In this document: positions 1 through 24,747 of the stretch, piece by piece | Numbering within the stretch: the first letter of the stretch is position 1 | Layout: every line of letters starts with the position of its first letter | Assembly (NCBI GenBank): GCA_017480545.1 | Contig: JAFVAI010000014.1 | Location: 1 to 33,752, forward strand | Length of the DNA: 33,752 nucleotides | Source of the DNA: Schwartzia sp. (in: firmicutes) | GTDB lineage: Bacteria; Bacillota; Negativicutes; Selenomonadales; Selenomonadaceae | Reading direction: 5' to 3' | Notes under the pieces: generated by a model | What the model was told of the DNA's origin: nothing | Seen by the model: the letters and a program-made list of their open reading frames with translations, nothing else | Databases searched by the model: none | Made by a program: the position numbers and the translations under genes

Positions 1-139
1 GCTAAAGCGCTAAGCGTCTGCTTATCGTCAGGCAAGGAAGATGGCGTGAAGGCGTAGCATCGCTACGTCAAACGGCATCTGACGCGGCATGACGGAAAAA
101 GACCCGGCAGGGGTGCGGCGGGACTTGTTCGGTGTTTCC
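1..139. mobile_element. MITE-like repeat, copy A (cut by window edge)
   Basis: This is the right part of a short non-coding repeat found five times in the window. Copy A shares the blocks GCTAAAGCGCTAAGCG, CTTATCGTCAGGCAAGG, the hairpin GCGTAGCATCGCTACG, and AAAAAGACCCGGC, and ends GTTTCC at 139. The following TAAA (140-143) is the expected position of one target-site duplication, but its partner lies outside the window. It runs opposite to copies B, C and E. It lies upstream of the symporter promoter. No open frame is conserved between copies. Confidence 0.85.
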
Positions 140-265
140 TAAACAACAAAGGGATGTCGCGTGAGGGCAAAAATTTACAAGCGGCCCCGGCCTGTATTCC
201 TCCGGAAATTTTCGTTTGCGGGACAGGATGAAGATTCCGTGTGCGATGATTTCGGGTTTTTCTCG

Positions 266-8163: not shown

Positions 8164-8376
8164 TCAGATCAATTTCGTCTCGTTGACTTCGCGAACCCCG
8201 GCGGCCTTGATCTCCGTGGGCAGAGCCTCGCCCACCAGAATCGCCTGCTTGTCGATGATCGACTGCATCACCGGCTCCACGTCCGCGCGGACGAGGTCGT
8301 CCTTCGGCGCGGCAAGGCTCATGGTCGTGGTCTTGCCGTTGTCCAGCGCGAAACGCATATTCAGCGTCTTTGCCAT
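8164..8376 (-). CDS. DUF2922 family small protein
   Basis: This 70-aa protein begins MAKTLNMRFALDNGKTTTM. The pattern of a short beta strand, GK, then APKDDLVRADVEPVMQSII matches the DUF2922 family, which is widespread and uncharacterised in Firmicutes. The start at 8376 follows a near-perfect AAGGAGGTGG; the extra three codons upstream lack a site. It is co-directional with, and 39 bp downstream of, the DUF1659 gene, its usual partner. The strong ribosome sites of both genes suggest high expression. No function is known. Confidence 0.8.
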   Translation of the reverse strand: MAKTLNMRFALDNGKTTTMSLAAPKDDLVRADVEPVMQSIIDKQAILVGEALPTEIKAAGVREVNETKLI

Positions 8377-8415: not shown

Positions 8416-8640
8416 TTACTCGCGGACCAGCGCGGACGTATCCTGGCGCGCGATACCGTTCAGCGGGTATGTCTGGAGTGCGCCCACCGCCGACGCGACA
8501 TCGTAAGCGTTCTCATCCGAAATCGCCGGATTGACGCTGCGGATCGTGCGCTGGCTGCAAGCCGCCGAGCCGTCCGCCTTCACGCCGGTCTCCACGGAGA
8601 GAAGCAGCTTCGTGCTCTGGTCTTTCTTGACAGTCGCCAT
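8416..8640 (-). CDS. DUF1659 family small protein
   Basis: This 74-aa protein begins MATVKKDQSTKLLLSVETG. The middle and end (AYDVASAVGALQTYPLNGI) fit DUF1659, the partner family of DUF2922 in Firmicute two-gene operons. The start at 8640 is preceded by AAAGGAGGTGATT, an anti-16S match of nine bases. I see no signal peptide or transmembrane segment. The pair may form a small complex, but this is inference from co-occurrence only. Confidence 0.8.
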   Translation of the reverse strand: MATVKKDQSTKLLLSVETGVKADGSAACSQRTIRSVNPAISDENAYDVASAVGALQTYPLNGIARQDTSALVRE

Positions 8641-8766: not shown

Positions 8767-9306
8767 TTATCCTCTTTGCATCAACCGGCGGAGCACCGCT
8801 TCCTCTTCGTCGCGCACCAGCTCGGCGCGGATGCGGCGGGCGTCCCCGATATGGGCGAGAGCCGTCCGCTCGCTCCAGAGCGTCCGCACCTTCGCGCCGC
8901 CGGAGAGGGCGATGACCGCCGTTTCCTGTCTGCCGCGCAAGGCCTTCCGCCCGCGCGGCTTTTCCGGCTCCGGCTCGGGACTGGCCAGCGCGGCGACATT
9001 GATATGCGCCATCGTGTTGTCGCCGCCGACCCGCGGGCGGCGTGTCTTCACCGGCGCCAGCACCAAATCGGCGGAAGCAGCGATGGGATTGTTCAGTGTG
9101 CGGCGCGTGTACCTGGCCGCCCAGCGGCGGAGCAGCGCCACGTCCTTGCAGCGGCGACGGGCCAGCGCCGACAGCGTGGCGCGCATCGTGCGGCGGAATA
9201 CCAGCGCCGTGCCGTTCGTCAGCACGACGCGTGTGACATCGCCCTCGGGCGTGTACTCCGGGAGCAGGGCCGCGATTTCGGAATCTTTGGGAAGCATGTT
9301 TTCCAT
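8767..9306 (-). CDS. Basic hypothetical regulator, possibly ComK-like
   Basis: This 179-aa protein begins MENMLPKDSEIAALLPEY and is very rich in Arg in the middle (residues 38-75), consistent with DNA binding. By eye the order of blocks recalls ComK, the Bacillus competence regulator: a short strand VVLTNGTAL, a basic patch, NPIAASADLVLAPV, HINVAAL, then TAVIALSGGAKVRTLWSERTAL. Identity is low and this could be coincidence. The start at 9306 follows GAAGGAAAA; the upstream frame to 9369 is leader. A consensus promoter with repeated TTTGTTC motifs precedes it, and it is divergent from a sigma factor gene. Transcriptional regulation is plausible; the family is uncertain. Confidence 0.55.
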   Translation of the reverse strand: MENMLPKDSEIAALLPEYTPEGDVTRVVLTNGTALVFRRTMRATLSALARRRCKDVALLRRWAARYTRRTLNNPIAASADLVLAPVKTRRPRVGGDNTMAHINVAALASPEPEPEKPRGRKALRGRQETAVIALSGGAKVRTLWSERTALAHIGDARRIRAELVRDEEEAVLRRLMQRG

Positions 9307-9401
9307 TGACTTTTTTCCTTCTTTCCAGTTTGAGATTTTCCGCACGAAAGCGCGAGGCGGACGGGGCATGCCCGTTTCGCGCCGACCACAAACACAGCCA
9401 T

Positions 9402-9449
9402 ATTATAGAATATTTGTTCCCAACTGTCAACAGAAACAAAATTTTGTTC
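9402..9449 (-). promoter_or_regulatory. Consensus promoter and putative operator of the 9306 gene
   Basis: On the minus strand the -35 box is TTGACA (9425-9430), followed by a 17-bp spacer and TATAAT (9402-9407), a full sigma-A consensus. TTTGTTC (plus strand) occurs at 9413-9419 and again at 9443-9449, exactly 30 bp apart and on either side of the -35 box. The second copy sits in the palindrome ACAAAATTTTGT. Such a strong promoter flanked by phased repeats is probably repressed by a bound protein. Confidence 0.75.
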
Positions 9450-9528
9450 GCAAATGTCGAGTCGCAGTCCGCCCGGCTTTTGCGGTTCCGGATGAAAAAG
9501 CGCAGACTATGGGCAAGCGCGAATCCAT

Positions 9529-9544
9529 GAGGAACCGGTTCCTC
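9529..9544. promoter_or_regulatory. Perfect 16-bp palindrome before the sigma factor gene
   Basis: GAGGAACCGGTTCCTC is a perfect palindrome ending 17 bp before the ATG at 9562. It could be an operator or a short RNA hairpin close to the ribosome site. Confidence 0.45.
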
Positions 9545-9561
9545 GCCGAAAGGTGAGGACA

Positions 9562-10113
9562 ATGACAGAAGAACATTGGATTGCTGCCGCGAAAGGCGGC
9601 GACAGGGAGGCCATGGCGAATTTGCTTGCCCGGTATGAAGGACTTTGCCGGAAAGCCGCCGGGCAGGCGCATCTTGCGCCGCTGGGGGAAGACGCGCTTT
9701 CGGCGGCGCGGGAGAGTTTTCTCCGCGCCGTGCGCGAGTACGACGAGCGCCGGGGCGTGCCGTTCCCCGGCTTTGCCAAGGCAAAAGTCTACGGCGATCT
9801 CCGTACGCTGTTCAAGCGGGCGCGCCGCGGATGGCAGCGCGAGGTCTTTCCGGCGGAGACGGAGGACGGGGAAAGCCCCTTCGCCGCCATTCCCGATCCT
9901 CGGGACGACCTGGCGAGGTTCGAGGCCGACGACGCGTTCCGCGCGATGCTCGCGCCGCTCTCCGAAAAGCCGCGCCGCCTCCTGGCGATGCTTTACGCGG
10001 ACGGCATGACGCAAAAAGCCGCCGCCGCCCGGCTCGGCATGAGCCAACAGGCGGCGGCGGTGGTAAAGGCAAGGGCGCTGAAGCAGCTGCGCAAAATCGC
10101 GATGCGTGTTTGA
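9562..10113 (+). CDS. Sigma-70 family RNA polymerase sigma factor (small)
   Basis: This 183-aa protein begins MTEEHWIAAAKGGDREAM. Region 2 is recognisable (residues 5-90, with REYDERRGVPFPGFAKAKV, like the FxxYA block of group 3 and SigH-like factors). Region 4 is at the C terminus, with a helix-turn-helix LYADGMTQKAAAARLGMS followed by a basic helix. It lacks regions 1 and 3. The start ATG at 9562 follows AGGTGAGGAC; GTG at 9553 is a weaker alternative. It is divergent from the basic regulator at 9306, and the two may form a regulatory pair. Its target promoters are unknown. Confidence 0.82.
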   Translation: MTEEHWIAAAKGGDREAMANLLARYEGLCRKAAGQAHLAPLGEDALSAARESFLRAVREYDERRGVPFPGFAKAKVYGDLRTLFKRARRGWQREVFPAETEDGESPFAAIPDPRDDLARFEADDAFRAMLAPLSEKPRRLLAMLYADGMTQKAAAARLGMSQQAAAVVKARALKQLRKIAMRV

Positions 10114-10216
10114 CGGATATAAAAAAGCCGCTTCTTTTGTTGGCTGAATTAGGGATTGTTCCTAGAGGGAACCTCGAAAAACTTTTTTTCATACTTATCT
10201 CAGACCAAAATTTTAA

Positions 10217-10424
10217 GGAAACGCCGAACAAGTCCCTTCGGCCCACGCCGGGTCTTTTTCCGTCATGCTGCGTCAGATGCCGTTCGACGTAGCGATGCTA
10301 CGCCTTCGCAGCATCTTCCTTGCCTGACGATAAGCAGACGCTTAGCGCTTTAGCGCTTAGCGGTCGCTTATGCAAAGCTAAAAATCCCTCGGTGTGGCCT
10401 CGAATTGACTTATTCGTCGTTTCC
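10217..10424. mobile_element. MITE-like element, copy C, with TTAA target duplication
   Basis: This is a complete 208-bp element, nearly identical to copy B and in the same orientation. It has the same terminal inverted repeats and direct TTAA at 10213-10216 and 10425-10428. The flanks contain TATCTCAGACC (about 10197) and GACCTGAGATA (about 10439). Removing the element therefore leaves a palindromic target with arms of about 8-11 bp. It sits between the sigma factor gene and the restriction-modification genes. Confidence 0.92.
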
Positions 10425-10604: not shown

Positions 10605-11810
10605 ATGGTTAGATCAAAGTTCCAACGGTTCGAATCTAACAGAAACGCGATTTCTCTCTTCAGCGGTGCCATGGGGCTTGACATTGGACTTGGACAAGCG
10701 GGGCTAAATGTCGTTTTAGGACAAGATTTTGACCCGGTATGCGTTAAGACAATGCAAGCGAATCATCATAAAGTCATTGGCGGTGATATACGAGGCTTGG
10801 AGGCGGAAGATTTGCTCGCAATGACGGAAATGACGGTAGGAGAACCTTTTCTCGTTTGCGGCGGTCCTCCGTGCCAACCGTTTTCCACGGCGGGGAAACG
10901 CTTGGGTATTCTCGATCCTCGCGGCAGTCTGTTTATGGACTTTATCCGAATGATTGATTATATTCGCCCACGTTTCTTTGTTATGGAAAATGTCAAGGGA
11001 ATAATGTCATCTCCTTTGAAACACTTGCCAACAGGAGAACAAAACCAATCCGACTCCGAGCAACGACTAGGGACAGTTTTGAGTGTTATTTTATCTGAGT
11101 TTAACAAACTCGAATACAGAACAGTGTATGGAATTCTTGATGCCGTTAATTACGGCGTTCCTCAATTTAGGGAAAGATTCGTTTTAATCGGCAGCAGAGA
11201 TAACGAGGAAATATTTTTGCCGTTTCCTACCCATTTCCAAATGCATCAAGATTTGCACTATCGTTGGAAGACTGTGGGCGATGCTATACGCGATCTCGAA
11301 AATGCAGTTGGTGAATGTGGAAAGCTGACGCCAGAACGAAAAAAATATCTTCAAATGATTCCAGAGGGCGGAAATTGGCGGGATTTACCCAAAGATATTA
11401 TTCCCGTTGCAATGGGAGGCGCCTATAAGTCTGGCGGAGGAAAGGCAGGTTTCTATCGCAGATTGTCCTATTCACAGCCTGCACCCACGATAACAACCTC
11501 ACCCACACAGAAAGCAACCATGTTATGCCATCCTAAACAGGACAGACCCTTAAGCGTAAAAGAATATGCACGTATTCAGCAATTCCCTGATGATTGGATA
11601 TTCGCAGGGACAACAGCAGCAAAATACAAACAGATAGGAAATGCAGTTCCGATTGGTTTGGCAAGGGCTATTGGCGAGGCGGTTATGGCAACAGCCAACA
11701 ATTCATCAACCATAAAAACCAAACGTTTTAGAGGAACAAGCATCCACAATAGAATAAAAACTGCAATGGAATTAGGGGGAAACGATGGAACCTATCAATA
11801 TCAGCTATGA
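10605..11810 (+). CDS. DNA (cytosine-5-)-methyltransferase of a type II RM system
   Basis: This 401-aa enzyme transfers methyl from S-adenosylmethionine to C5 of cytosine in the site recognised by the partner nuclease. Motif I is LFSGAMGLDIGLGQAG, motif IV is GGPPCQPFS with catalytic Cys90, motif VI is FFVMENVKG, motif VIII is YGVPQFRERF, and motifs IX-X are at the C terminus ending QIGNAVPIGLARAIG. The target-recognition region lies between VIII and IX. The start ATG at 10605 follows GAAGGAAAG. Base use is clearly AT-richer than the flanking genes, with A/T-ending codons, a sign of transfer. It overlaps the nuclease gene by 26 bp. The recognition site cannot be read from sequence. Confidence 0.95.
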   Translation: MVRSKFQRFESNRNAISLFSGAMGLDIGLGQAGLNVVLGQDFDPVCVKTMQANHHKVIGGDIRGLEAEDLLAMTEMTVGEPFLVCGGPPCQPFSTAGKRLGILDPRGSLFMDFIRMIDYIRPRFFVMENVKGIMSSPLKHLPTGEQNQSDSEQRLGTVLSVILSEFNKLEYRTVYGILDAVNYGVPQFRERFVLIGSRDNEEIFLPFPTHFQMHQDLHYRWKTVGDAIRDLENAVGECGKLTPERKKYLQMIPEGGNWRDLPKDIIPVAMGGAYKSGGGKAGFYRRLSYSQPAPTITTSPTQKATMLCHPKQDRPLSVKEYARIQQFPDDWIFAGTTAAKYKQIGNAVPIGLARAIGEAVMATANNSSTIKTKRFRGTSIHNRIKTAMELGGNDGTYQYQL

Positions 11811-12753
11811 CGAAGAAGAAGTTAAGAAAGCAATAGCAAACGCACTTGAAAATTTCTATAACTCATTGCTTAGTAAACTCGATGCTATAGACCTTAAAAC
11901 AATTATGAAGTCCAAGAATCCATATTTATATCGAGCGAAGTCAATGCAAACTTCCGCTGATATCATAGAGTCCATTTTGCAGGCGTTTGTAAGTTCCAGC
12001 GAAGAAACTATTTTTGGAAATTGCTTTTTCGAACCGATTGCTATTGCGGCGTGCAGAGGAACAAAATCGGCGACAAGGGGCGTAGATATCGAGTTACATG
12101 ATACAACAGACAATATAAAGTATTTTGTGGCAGTAAAGAGCGGAACTTCGATATTTAATGCTGATAGCATGAAAAAACAGGGTGAAAACTTTGAAGAAGC
12201 ACAAAGAACCTTAAGAACCTCTGGCGGTCGAATCGGTTTTTCCGCTATTGTCGGTTATGCTTATGGGACCAAGACCGAAACAGGAAGAGGGAAAGCCAAA
12301 ATATACGAGGAAGTTGCGGGAGAAGAATTTTGGGAGGCTTTGACCGGCGACAAGGACTTCTACACAAAAATCATATCGTACATGGGCACTCTTCCAGAGC
12401 AGTATATTGAAGATTATCGTACTGCATATAATAAGGCTTCGAATCGTTTAATCCGGGATTTTTCCATAGAGTTTTGCAATTCGGATGGAACGATTAACTG
12501 GGAGAAACTTGTCGATTATAATTCCGGAAGCCCTTCTCGAAAAGCAAGAGAAGCGTTAGAATGTGATTCACGAATAATCATCAACGAAATACAAAAGAAT
12601 CCTAACATAAATAAGGCTACACTGCAGGAAAACTGTAACCTCTCTGACTCACGCATCAAGAAAATATTAGCTTATCTGGTAGAATCGGGATATTTACTTC
12701 AGGAACGCAACGGAAATAAAATACATTGGAAAATATTAAGGCCAATGGAATAA
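11785..12753 (+). CDS. Type II restriction endonuclease (PmeII-like, PD-(D/E)XK)
   Basis: This 322-aa protein is encoded directly after and overlapping the C5 methyltransferase, which is the strongest evidence for its role. A nuclease-like core contains GVDIELHDTT (Asp101, Glu103) followed by YFVAVKSG (Lys118), fitting a PD-(D/E)XK active site. FFEPIAIAACRG precedes it. The C-terminal 70 residues look like a winged helix (KATLQENCNLSDSRIKKILAYLVESGYL), likely for DNA binding. From memory the overall layout resembles the PmeII family. The start ATG at 11785 follows TTAGGGGGA. It is AT-rich like its partner. The product is not truncated. Confidence 0.8.
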   Translation: MEPINISYDEEEVKKAIANALENFYNSLLSKLDAIDLKTIMKSKNPYLYRAKSMQTSADIIESILQAFVSSSEETIFGNCFFEPIAIAACRGTKSATRGVDIELHDTTDNIKYFVAVKSGTSIFNADSMKKQGENFEEAQRTLRTSGGRIGFSAIVGYAYGTKTETGRGKAKIYEEVAGEEFWEALTGDKDFYTKIISYMGTLPEQYIEDYRTAYNKASNRLIRDFSIEFCNSDGTINWEKLVDYNSGSPSRKAREALECDSRIIINEIQKNPNINKATLQENCNLSDSRIKKILAYLVESGYLLQERNGNKIHWKILRPME

Positions 12754-12821: not shown

Positions 12822-13316
12822 TTATTGCTCCCGGTACCAGCCCGCTTTTCCGATCAGCTCTTGCATGCGCGCATAGAGAGCGTCGCCGGGGCAGGCGGTG
12901 GCGGCCAGGTCGCGATGGCCGACGATGTGCGCTCTGTCCGGTGCGAGGCCGAAGGCCGCGGACAGCACCGCCAGGAGCATCGCGCAGGCTTCGATTTGGA
13001 CCGCGCTTGGCGCCTCCGCGCAAAAATTTCCGCAAAGGGCCACGCCGAGGCTTTCGCCGTTCGCTCCTTCCGTGTGGGCGCCGACGGCGTACGCCGGGCG
13101 ACCGGATTCTATCGCGCCGTTTTTTCGGATCAGGTAATGGTAGCCGATGCCGGCCCATCCGAGCCGCCGGTGCGCCGCGTCGATCTCGGCGGCGCTCGGG
13201 TCCTCCCCCGCCGCGCCGCCCGTGTGGTGCAGGACGACGAGATTTGTCCCGTCCCTCGCGCCGAGGCGCCCCGACGGAAACCGCAGACCGTAATCAACAA
13301 CATGGATTGCTTCCAT
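12822..13316 (-). CDS. N-acetylmuramoyl-L-alanine amidase (Amidase_2/PGRP)
   Basis: This 164-aa, single-domain zinc amidase cleaves the bond between MurNAc and L-Ala in peptidoglycan. Zinc ligands are visible: His30 in VLHHTGG, His134 in VGHRDL, and Cys142 in TACPG; Tyr59 (GIGYHY) fits the catalytic tyrosine. A Thr stands at the position of T7 lysozyme Lys128, as in many PGRPs. No signal peptide or wall-binding domain is present, so export needs a partner, as with phage endolysins. The start at 13316 follows GGAGGGG. It lies 42 bp downstream of a 55-aa membrane peptide gene in the same direction. No other phage genes are nearby. Confidence 0.9.
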   Translation of the reverse strand: MEAIHVVDYGLRFPSGRLGARDGTNLVVLHHTGGAAGEDPSAAEIDAAHRRLGWAGIGYHYLIRKNGAIESGRPAYAVGAHTEGANGESLGVALCGNFCAEAPSAVQIEACAMLLAVLSAAFGLAPDRAHIVGHRDLAATACPGDALYARMQELIGKAGWYREQ

Positions 13317-13358
13317 AATAATCCCCTCCAACTTTTCACGCCAAACTCCACGCTCCCC

Positions 13359-24552: not shown

Positions 24553-24712
24553 GGAAACGACGATTAAGTCAAGTCGTGCCCATGCCGAGGGATTTTTTCG
24601 TCAGGCAAGGAAAAGTGCTCGAAGGCGTAGCAGAGCTACGTCGAGAGTACTTTGACGCAGCATGGCGGAAAAAGACCCGGCATGGGCACAGCGGGACTTA
24701 TTCGGCGTTTCC
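24553..24712. mobile_element. MITE-like element, copy D, with TATG target duplication
   Basis: This is a 160-bp member in the opposite orientation to B, C and E. It starts GGAAACGACGATTAAGTC and ends GACTTATTCGGCGTTTCC, with direct TATG at 24549-24552 and 24713-24716. Both terminal arms also share GTGCCCATGCCG, making the terminal inverted repeat about 35 bp. The central hairpin has the GTAGC/GCTAC core of copies B and C but different outer arms (AAGTGCTCGA / TCGAGAGTACTT). The CGCTTAGCG repeat block is absent. Confidence 0.9.
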
Positions 24713-24747
24713 TATGCCGGGATGCAGATCCAGGAAGAATCATGCGC

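Follow-up and report, generated by a model that had tools for sequence, protein, structure and literature searches.

In Bacillus, ComK is the master regulator of competence for DNA uptake; it targets genes of DNA uptake and recombination, and its hallmarks are binding to K-boxes, control of the late com genes, and binding to MecA. Small sigma factors such as ComX/SigX and SigH are also tied to competence. Bistable RNA leaders with anti-Shine-Dalgarno stems are familiar from riboswitch platforms and thermosensors, and we know of no three-arm leader switch for ComX/SigX or SigH. The LexA operator of Bacillota is GAAC-N4-GTTC. To our knowledge the LexA/SOS regulon of this phylum includes no ComK relative, and none is described in the publication titles listed.

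The window analyzed here, a stretch of 33,752 nucleotides from Schwartzia sp., encodes on its minus strand a ComK-like regulator (8767-9306 including the stop codon at 8767-8769; open reading frame 8770-9306), a protein of 179 residues that is rich in arginine and has a LytTR-like predicted fold. On the plus strand lies a small sigma-70 family gene (9562-10113) of 183 codons from the ATG, with a GTG start at 9553 also possible. Both genes had been described in a sequence-only reading of this DNA, which proposed a competence-like or stress regulatory module in a diderm Firmicute. The lineage fits, relatives of the same class being Pelosinus, a Negativicute, and the idea of a stress module gains support from the LexA-type boxes described below. 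We consider it reasonably probable that the pair couples a ComK-type activator under SOS induction to a sigma factor whose translation is gated by an RNA switch, and that this module has been kept in many Negativicutes.

The ComK-like family is so far unannotated and is found beside a small sigma factor. The window protein received no Pfam or NCBIfam family name over the cut-offs, and the best NCBIfam match among 40 family members had an E value of 0.019. A single-sequence search with the window protein recovered relatives in 44 of 100 related genomes, and a profile search placed the family in 50 of the 100 (40 of the 74 of good quality). The single-sequence search pointed to 45 places, out of which 41 stretches were used, namely the window and 40 that were fetched (G002, G038, G039, and G082 were left out, G002 being added later); an iterated HMM detected the family in 41/41. 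The gene is also carried by 13 named loci (5 Pelosinus, 3 Sporomusa, and 5 other MAGs), a sample that reflects a search biased to the Sporomusa/Pelosinus group. No viral contig was found with the window protein, and no plasmid matched the ComK-like and sigma proteins of the Pelosinus group. A second ComK-like/sigma pair occurs in the window's own assembly (G000, contig C19, locus L031). Judged by sequence, contig C19 is probably contamination from a G002-like species, because it resembles G002 at 83% over 2.4 kb and shares its downstream gene, against 73% for the window in that region.

The sequence-only reading had noted a faint ComK-like block order in the 179-residue protein and had named a profile search and structure prediction as checks. 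The profile comparison bears the resemblance out as real remote homology, since hhalign gave probabilities of 93-95% when shuffles reached at most 0.5. An alignment of the family (A1, made without the low-complexity row L059) matched five ComK sequences at 93.1 over 132 columns and ten ComK sequences, two of them partial, at 93.7, or at 95.4 with the roles reversed (scores 51-57); the match is colinear over 132-138 columns. As controls, 100 column shuffles gave a maximum of 0.5 with a score of 16, reversed ComK gave 0.3, and the profile of an unrelated sigma factor reached 0.1. These profile comparisons support the window protein as a distant homologue of ComK. At the curated cut-off, the Pfam ComK model (PF06338) matched neither the window protein nor anything in its genome. 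Weak matches to it in 3 of the 40 family members (best E 0.0091) did not surpass those of the same scan to NAD_kinase in five members (0.0011) and FlbD in one (0.0022). The ComK invariants of alignment A2 (the Cys block, FPT, and W) are not kept in A1. Because the protein stays below the Pfam cut-off and lacks the conserved Cys block, we file it as a relative of ComK and not as ComK. A six-frame search of the 100 genomes with Pfam ComK gave mostly short matches among the 45 listed, and the two of these that fall on family loci (G064 and G079) are the two longest.

Structure prediction returned a confident AlphaFold model of the ComK-like protein (mean pLDDT 92.3, pTM 0.86). Foldseek with this model found nothing at E<=0.001 in the PDB and BFVD, and in a second look with VIA-align the six best entries were all LytTR domains (AgrA, pneumococcal ComE, and B. 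cereus), with Z of 6.8-7.2 over 88-103 residues at 2.7-3.7 A and the next entry at 3.1. A Z below 8 is weak by itself and calls for caution, but the gap to the next entry and the consistency of the six are not weak. The modeled fold thus resembles that of LytTR. At the sequence level, LytTR (PF04397) matched none of the 40 family members at E<=1, and hhalign of the family against LytTR gave 16.6% and 10.4%, with shuffles reaching no more than 2.2%; for ComK against LytTR the figure was 1.2%, less than its shuffles attained (up to 4.0). The model of a real ComK (L099) is poor, with a pLDDT of 51, a similar order of elements, and an uninformative fold search, and for this reason the proposition that ComK itself has a LytTR fold rests on transitivity. 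A search of the PDB by sequence profile gave complement C9 at a best E of 1.6, which we took as chance. With this model the ComK superfamily gains a candidate fold. In a cryo-EM paper on this superfamily, density is seen on DNA (PMC8170675).

The ComK-like gene has the perfect promoter noted in the sequence-only reading, TTGACA-17-TATAAT, which agrees with the consensus at 12/12 positions on the minus strand (9402-9430; TTGACA 9430-9425, TATAAT 9407-9402). A scan found this one site, and shuffles gave on average 0.9 sites at >=9/12. The promoter is kept in 7/7 copies of the genus, one of which is contig C19, G010 differing at one position of the -35 hexamer and G007 at one of the -10. Two TTTGTTC repeats had been described as flanking it. 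The copies do lie exactly 30 bp apart on the plus strand (9413-9449; 9413-9419 and 9443-9449), but one sits in the spacer between the -35 and -10 hexamers and the other upstream of -35, and such a pair is of modest weight (one or more arose in 20 of 100 shuffles at up to two mismatches). A role as phased operators fell away, the upstream copy not being kept in three of the seven genus copies (G005, G008, and G010). The spacer copy belongs to a GAAY-N4-RTTC box that is kept in 7/7. In the window this LexA-type box, GAACAAATATTC (9408-9419, minus strand), has one mismatch to GAAC-N4-GTTC, and the box is likewise one mismatch off in all seven copies, always between -35 and -10. The 9-mer GTGTTTGTG at about +1 (9387-9395, minus strand) begins 6 nt past the -10 hexamer, or 5-7 nt past it in other copies, and is present in 7/7.

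Forty regions upstream of the ComK-like gene, each spanning at least 150 and at most 250 nt, were scanned for GAAC-N4-GTTC, which was perfect in 15/40 and within one mismatch in 30/40, ten genes having no box of this quality. Control genes of the same stretches gave 0/299 and 13/299 once 16 control windows overlapping those of the ComK-like gene were excluded (6 and 25 of 320 before, under slightly other limits). With one locus per genus the box was perfect in 12/29 and within one mismatch in 20/29, against 0 and 10 of 214 controls. None of seven other palindromic patterns was perfect upstream of any ComK-like gene, and no perfect LexA-type box lies upstream of the 31 sigma genes. At the level of the class, this contrast (15/40 versus 0/299) identifies LexA-type operator sequences upstream of the gene family. 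Among the named loci the box is perfect in 8/13, three of which coincide with L042, L052, and L069; P. propionicus and S. acidovorans carry GAACATATGTTC. In the window's genus, recA has a one-mismatch box in 9/9, and lexA has a weaker one with two or more mismatches. A leader structure in the mRNA of the ComK-like gene was considered and set aside (weak consensus, 3/14 pairs with double changes, and an unfavorable covariation term).

The sigma protein matches region 4 and ECF models over the Pfam cut-offs and scores 61.3 bits against a cut-off of 42.9 for TIGR02937, the sigma-70 superfamily model; region 2 is absent from its matches listed. Across the sigma family, region 4 is found in 22/22 members and region 2 in 15/22 at E<=0.01. 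The linkage expected from the pairing of the two genes is conserved: the same sigma family occurs in 31 of the 41 stretches, 208-4603 bp from the ComK-like gene (24 divergent, 5 convergent, and 2 on the same strand), and ten stretches show no sigma gene, some since the contig ends. The order typical of genomes of the Sporomusa/Pelosinus type is RecD2, (DUF2922, DUF1659), sigma, ABC-F, sometimes encapsulin, ComK-like, a small gene, a NarL-type regulator, and PGI. In the lineage of the window the ComK-like and sigma genes are directly divergent, and DUF1659 and DUF2922 proteins are encoded beyond the ComK-like gene on the minus strand (8416-8640 and 8167-8376, respectively). Members of the DUF1659 family are direct neighbors of the same sigma gene in L041, L052, L054, L057, L069, and L070, and DUF2922 stands beside DUF1659 and sigma in L041, L052, L054, and L069.

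Several other features of these neighborhoods were observed. A single small ORF separates an encapsulin-family gene from the ComK-like gene in L041, L042, L043, L052, L060, and L069. In the window, the interval that separates sigma from an amidase-like gene (12822-13331, by eye) holds a C5 cytosine methyltransferase-like gene (motif seen by eye) and the next ORF, perhaps a restriction-modification pair (10605-12753). This segment is apparently an insertion, because amidase-like DNA directly follows sigma in G007 and in contig C19. A dispersed repeat of ~120-170 bp occurs four times in the window (22-140, 2403-2521, 10214-10333, and 24553-24719), once right after the sigma gene, and is 83-87% like its copy in G005. 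On a Priestia megaterium plasmid (L279, 4854-5916), an annotated ComK gene and a small sigma-70 gene face each other in convergent orientation, the latter matched by the sigma HMM of Negativicutes at 1e-15, a second ComK-sigma neighborhood.

The palindrome that had been noticed near the sigma start is indeed present (16 bp, 9529-9544, 17 nt before the ATG; 2 of 100 shuffles match it at up to two mismatches) and is one half of a three-arm leader element. On the plus strand, arm A (GAGGAAcc, 9529-9536) is followed by arm B (9537-9547), which is complementary to both other arms, and by arm C (9552-9560), which is like arm A and holds the Shine-Dalgarno sequence of the sigma gene. An AGCGCKAAT block (9516-9524) marks the presumed 5' end of the sigma mRNA, the start site having been placed by eye. 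The element is found in 38/40 sigma leaders (missing in L058 and L063), among which L084, L086, and L091 repeat L052, L069, and L042. In 35 rows, 32 of them distinct, helix A:B is paired in 99.5% of cells with 5/6 pairs changed on both sides, and helix B:C in 97.2% with 3/8 pairs so changed, counts that the relatedness of the rows inflates. The covariation score of each helix was reached by 0/500 shuffles; for B:C, pairs changed on both sides were reached by 4/500 and further pair types were not above shuffles (500/500). Columns 4/13/34 read G-C-G (18 rows), A-U-A (14), or G-U-A (3) in 35/35, and in L064 all three arms have changed with both pairings kept. Helix B:C is the more stable in 35/35 (mean -11.4 versus -5.8 kcal/mol). 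Two mutually exclusive helices that both covary are the mark of a cis-regulatory RNA switch, and the sigma leader has them.

Rfam has no match at the sigma leader; a guanidine-II match inside the sigma gene, below threshold (24 bits versus 32), was taken as chance. With one mismatch allowed, the palindrome occurs at 40 places in 35 of 100 genomes, and its backward control matched in 16 of the genomes searched. In 25 of 30 inspected loci the palindrome stands before this sigma gene; the other five are one-mismatch matches, one of which (L239) has weak sigma matches, and two of the ten remaining places, the window and L045, are known sigma leaders. A covariance model of the leader matched 65 of 398 genomes of the phylum at E<=0.01, in a search with stricter filters and few Negativicutes sampled, and exceeded 45 bits at four places only (both copies of the window's assembly, G029, and G015), the next scoring 30 bits. 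In the consulted portions of two published ncRNA surveys that refer to Negativicutes, the motifs named for this class are other ones (PMC6429828, PMC8632094). The two divergent transcripts each appear to begin with a conserved 9-mer (GTGTTTGTG and AGCGCKAAT), and by eye AGCGCKAAT lies ~6 nt past a -10-like TAnnnT in several other families. As a regulon motif AGCGCKAAT was rejected: 16/68 matches in the fetched loci fell outside the strict sigma context, two of them being the sigma leader of L048/L223 itself, and no com-gene enrichment was seen by eye.

With ComK homology, sigma linkage, LexA-type boxes, and covariation of both helices computed here, we infer LexA binding, a translational switch, a joint regulon, and an output in competence. 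The minus strand would encode a DNA-binding activator of the ComK superfamily with a LytTR-like beta fold, and its strong housekeeping promoter would be repressed by LexA, so that DNA damage would release LexA and turn the gene on. The plus-strand gene would be a small alternative sigma factor. Pairing of arm B with arm C would hide its ribosome-binding site (OFF, the more stable default), and pairing of arm B with arm A would free it (ON). Activator and sigma factor may then jointly turn on a regulon, most plausibly for DNA uptake and recombination. As regards the competence-like character proposed by the sequence-only reading, uptake genes are present in the genome (ComEC, DprA, and PilB-type ATPases), but no target gene was found. 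ComEC as a correlate was discarded as not discriminating, being present in 97/100 genomes with or without the regulator when the family is missing from 50/100. Competence as the output of the module is therefore a reasoned guess with about an even chance of being right, because no site was found that links the genome's DNA-uptake genes to either regulator and because the family is patchy compared with near-universal ComEC. Natural competence is known in Veillonella, and the terms comX, sigma, and comK are absent from the portion consulted of the paper on it (PMC5397411). The ComK-like and sigma proteins are concrete candidate regulators in culturable Negativicutes (Pelosinus, Sporomusa), a DNA-damage input to a ComK-type regulator is suggested together with a possible link between DNA damage and gene uptake, and the leader is a small, covariation-supported RNA switch that can be tested with reporters. 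A wider proposal, which we advance tentatively and hold at less than an even chance, joins ComK and LytTR into one DNA-binding superfamily bridged by the ComK-like family and gives Negativicutes a competence cascade induced by the SOS response, leading from LexA through the ComK-like activator to the sigma factor, with a new three-arm RNA switch controlling the sigma step.

The output of the module is where a different reading is most credible. A role in an SOS or stress response other than competence, for example through DUF1659/DUF2922 or through encapsulin, RecD2, and ABC-F neighbors, is a serious possibility short of an even chance: DUF1659 and DUF2922 adjoin the window pair as well as sigma in other families, genes for RecD2, ABC-F, and encapsulin often lie near the module, and the presence of ComEC is independent of the regulator, while the homology to ComK points to genes of DNA uptake and recombination and the genome has the uptake genes named above. 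The input could also be questioned, if the LexA-type box of the window were decayed or a chance motif and SOS control lost in this species. The box is one mismatch off, and the whole window holds 10 such matches when 15.3 are expected by chance; yet a box within one mismatch recurs in 7/7 genus copies at the same promoter position amid diverged surroundings, and the recA boxes of the genus are of the same quality, which makes such a loss rather unlikely.

The palindrome before the sigma gene might instead be a DNA operator for a dimeric repressor, its complementarity to the Shine-Dalgarno sequence being secondary. Its near-perfect twofold symmetry, its CCGG center, and its position 13 nt past the presumed start site would suit an operator, but this is unlikely given that arm C covaries with arm B (at columns 13/34, both sides have changed in 15 of the 32 distinct rows), that a protein-read operator need not keep both pairings as L064 does with three altered arms, and that 25/30 inspected palindromes precede this one sigma gene. 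Least probable of all, in our view, is a LytTR-type regulator that resembles ComK by convergence only; the solved-structure matches of the model are LytTR and the conserved Cys-containing block of ComK is absent from the family, but the profile match to ComK (93-95%) is far above those to LytTR (16.6% and 10.4%). We continue to favor an SOS-inducible, ComK-type activator coupled to an RNA-gated sigma factor.

Set against the described systems, the ComK-like protein shares with ComK (PF06338) of Bacilli a colinear profile match of 132-138 columns and a similar length, and the ComK gene on the Priestia plasmid likewise has a small sigma-70 gene as its neighbor. However, the family does not reach the Pfam cut-off and is without the conserved Cys block, and the six ComK genes of Bacilli that were inspected, one with only 37 nt upstream, have no LexA-type box within one mismatch. 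The LytTR domain (PF04397; AgrA, ComE) is approached in predicted fold (Z about 7 over 88-103 residues) but not in sequence, with no match in 40 members at E<=1 and weak profile similarity. As with ComX/SigX and SigH, a small sigma factor is found near a competence-type regulator, but the sigma family of the window forms its own sequence group, 16/22 members of which match HTH_16 at E<=0.01. With the LexA/SOS regulon of Bacillota the ComK-like family shares the perfect boxes found upstream of many of its members. Finally, the sigma leader resembles bistable leaders in its mutually exclusive helices, one of which would hide the ribosome site, and differs from them in being ~45 nt long with no evident aptamer and no Rfam match, and in being a strong element at four places in 398 genomes of the phylum.
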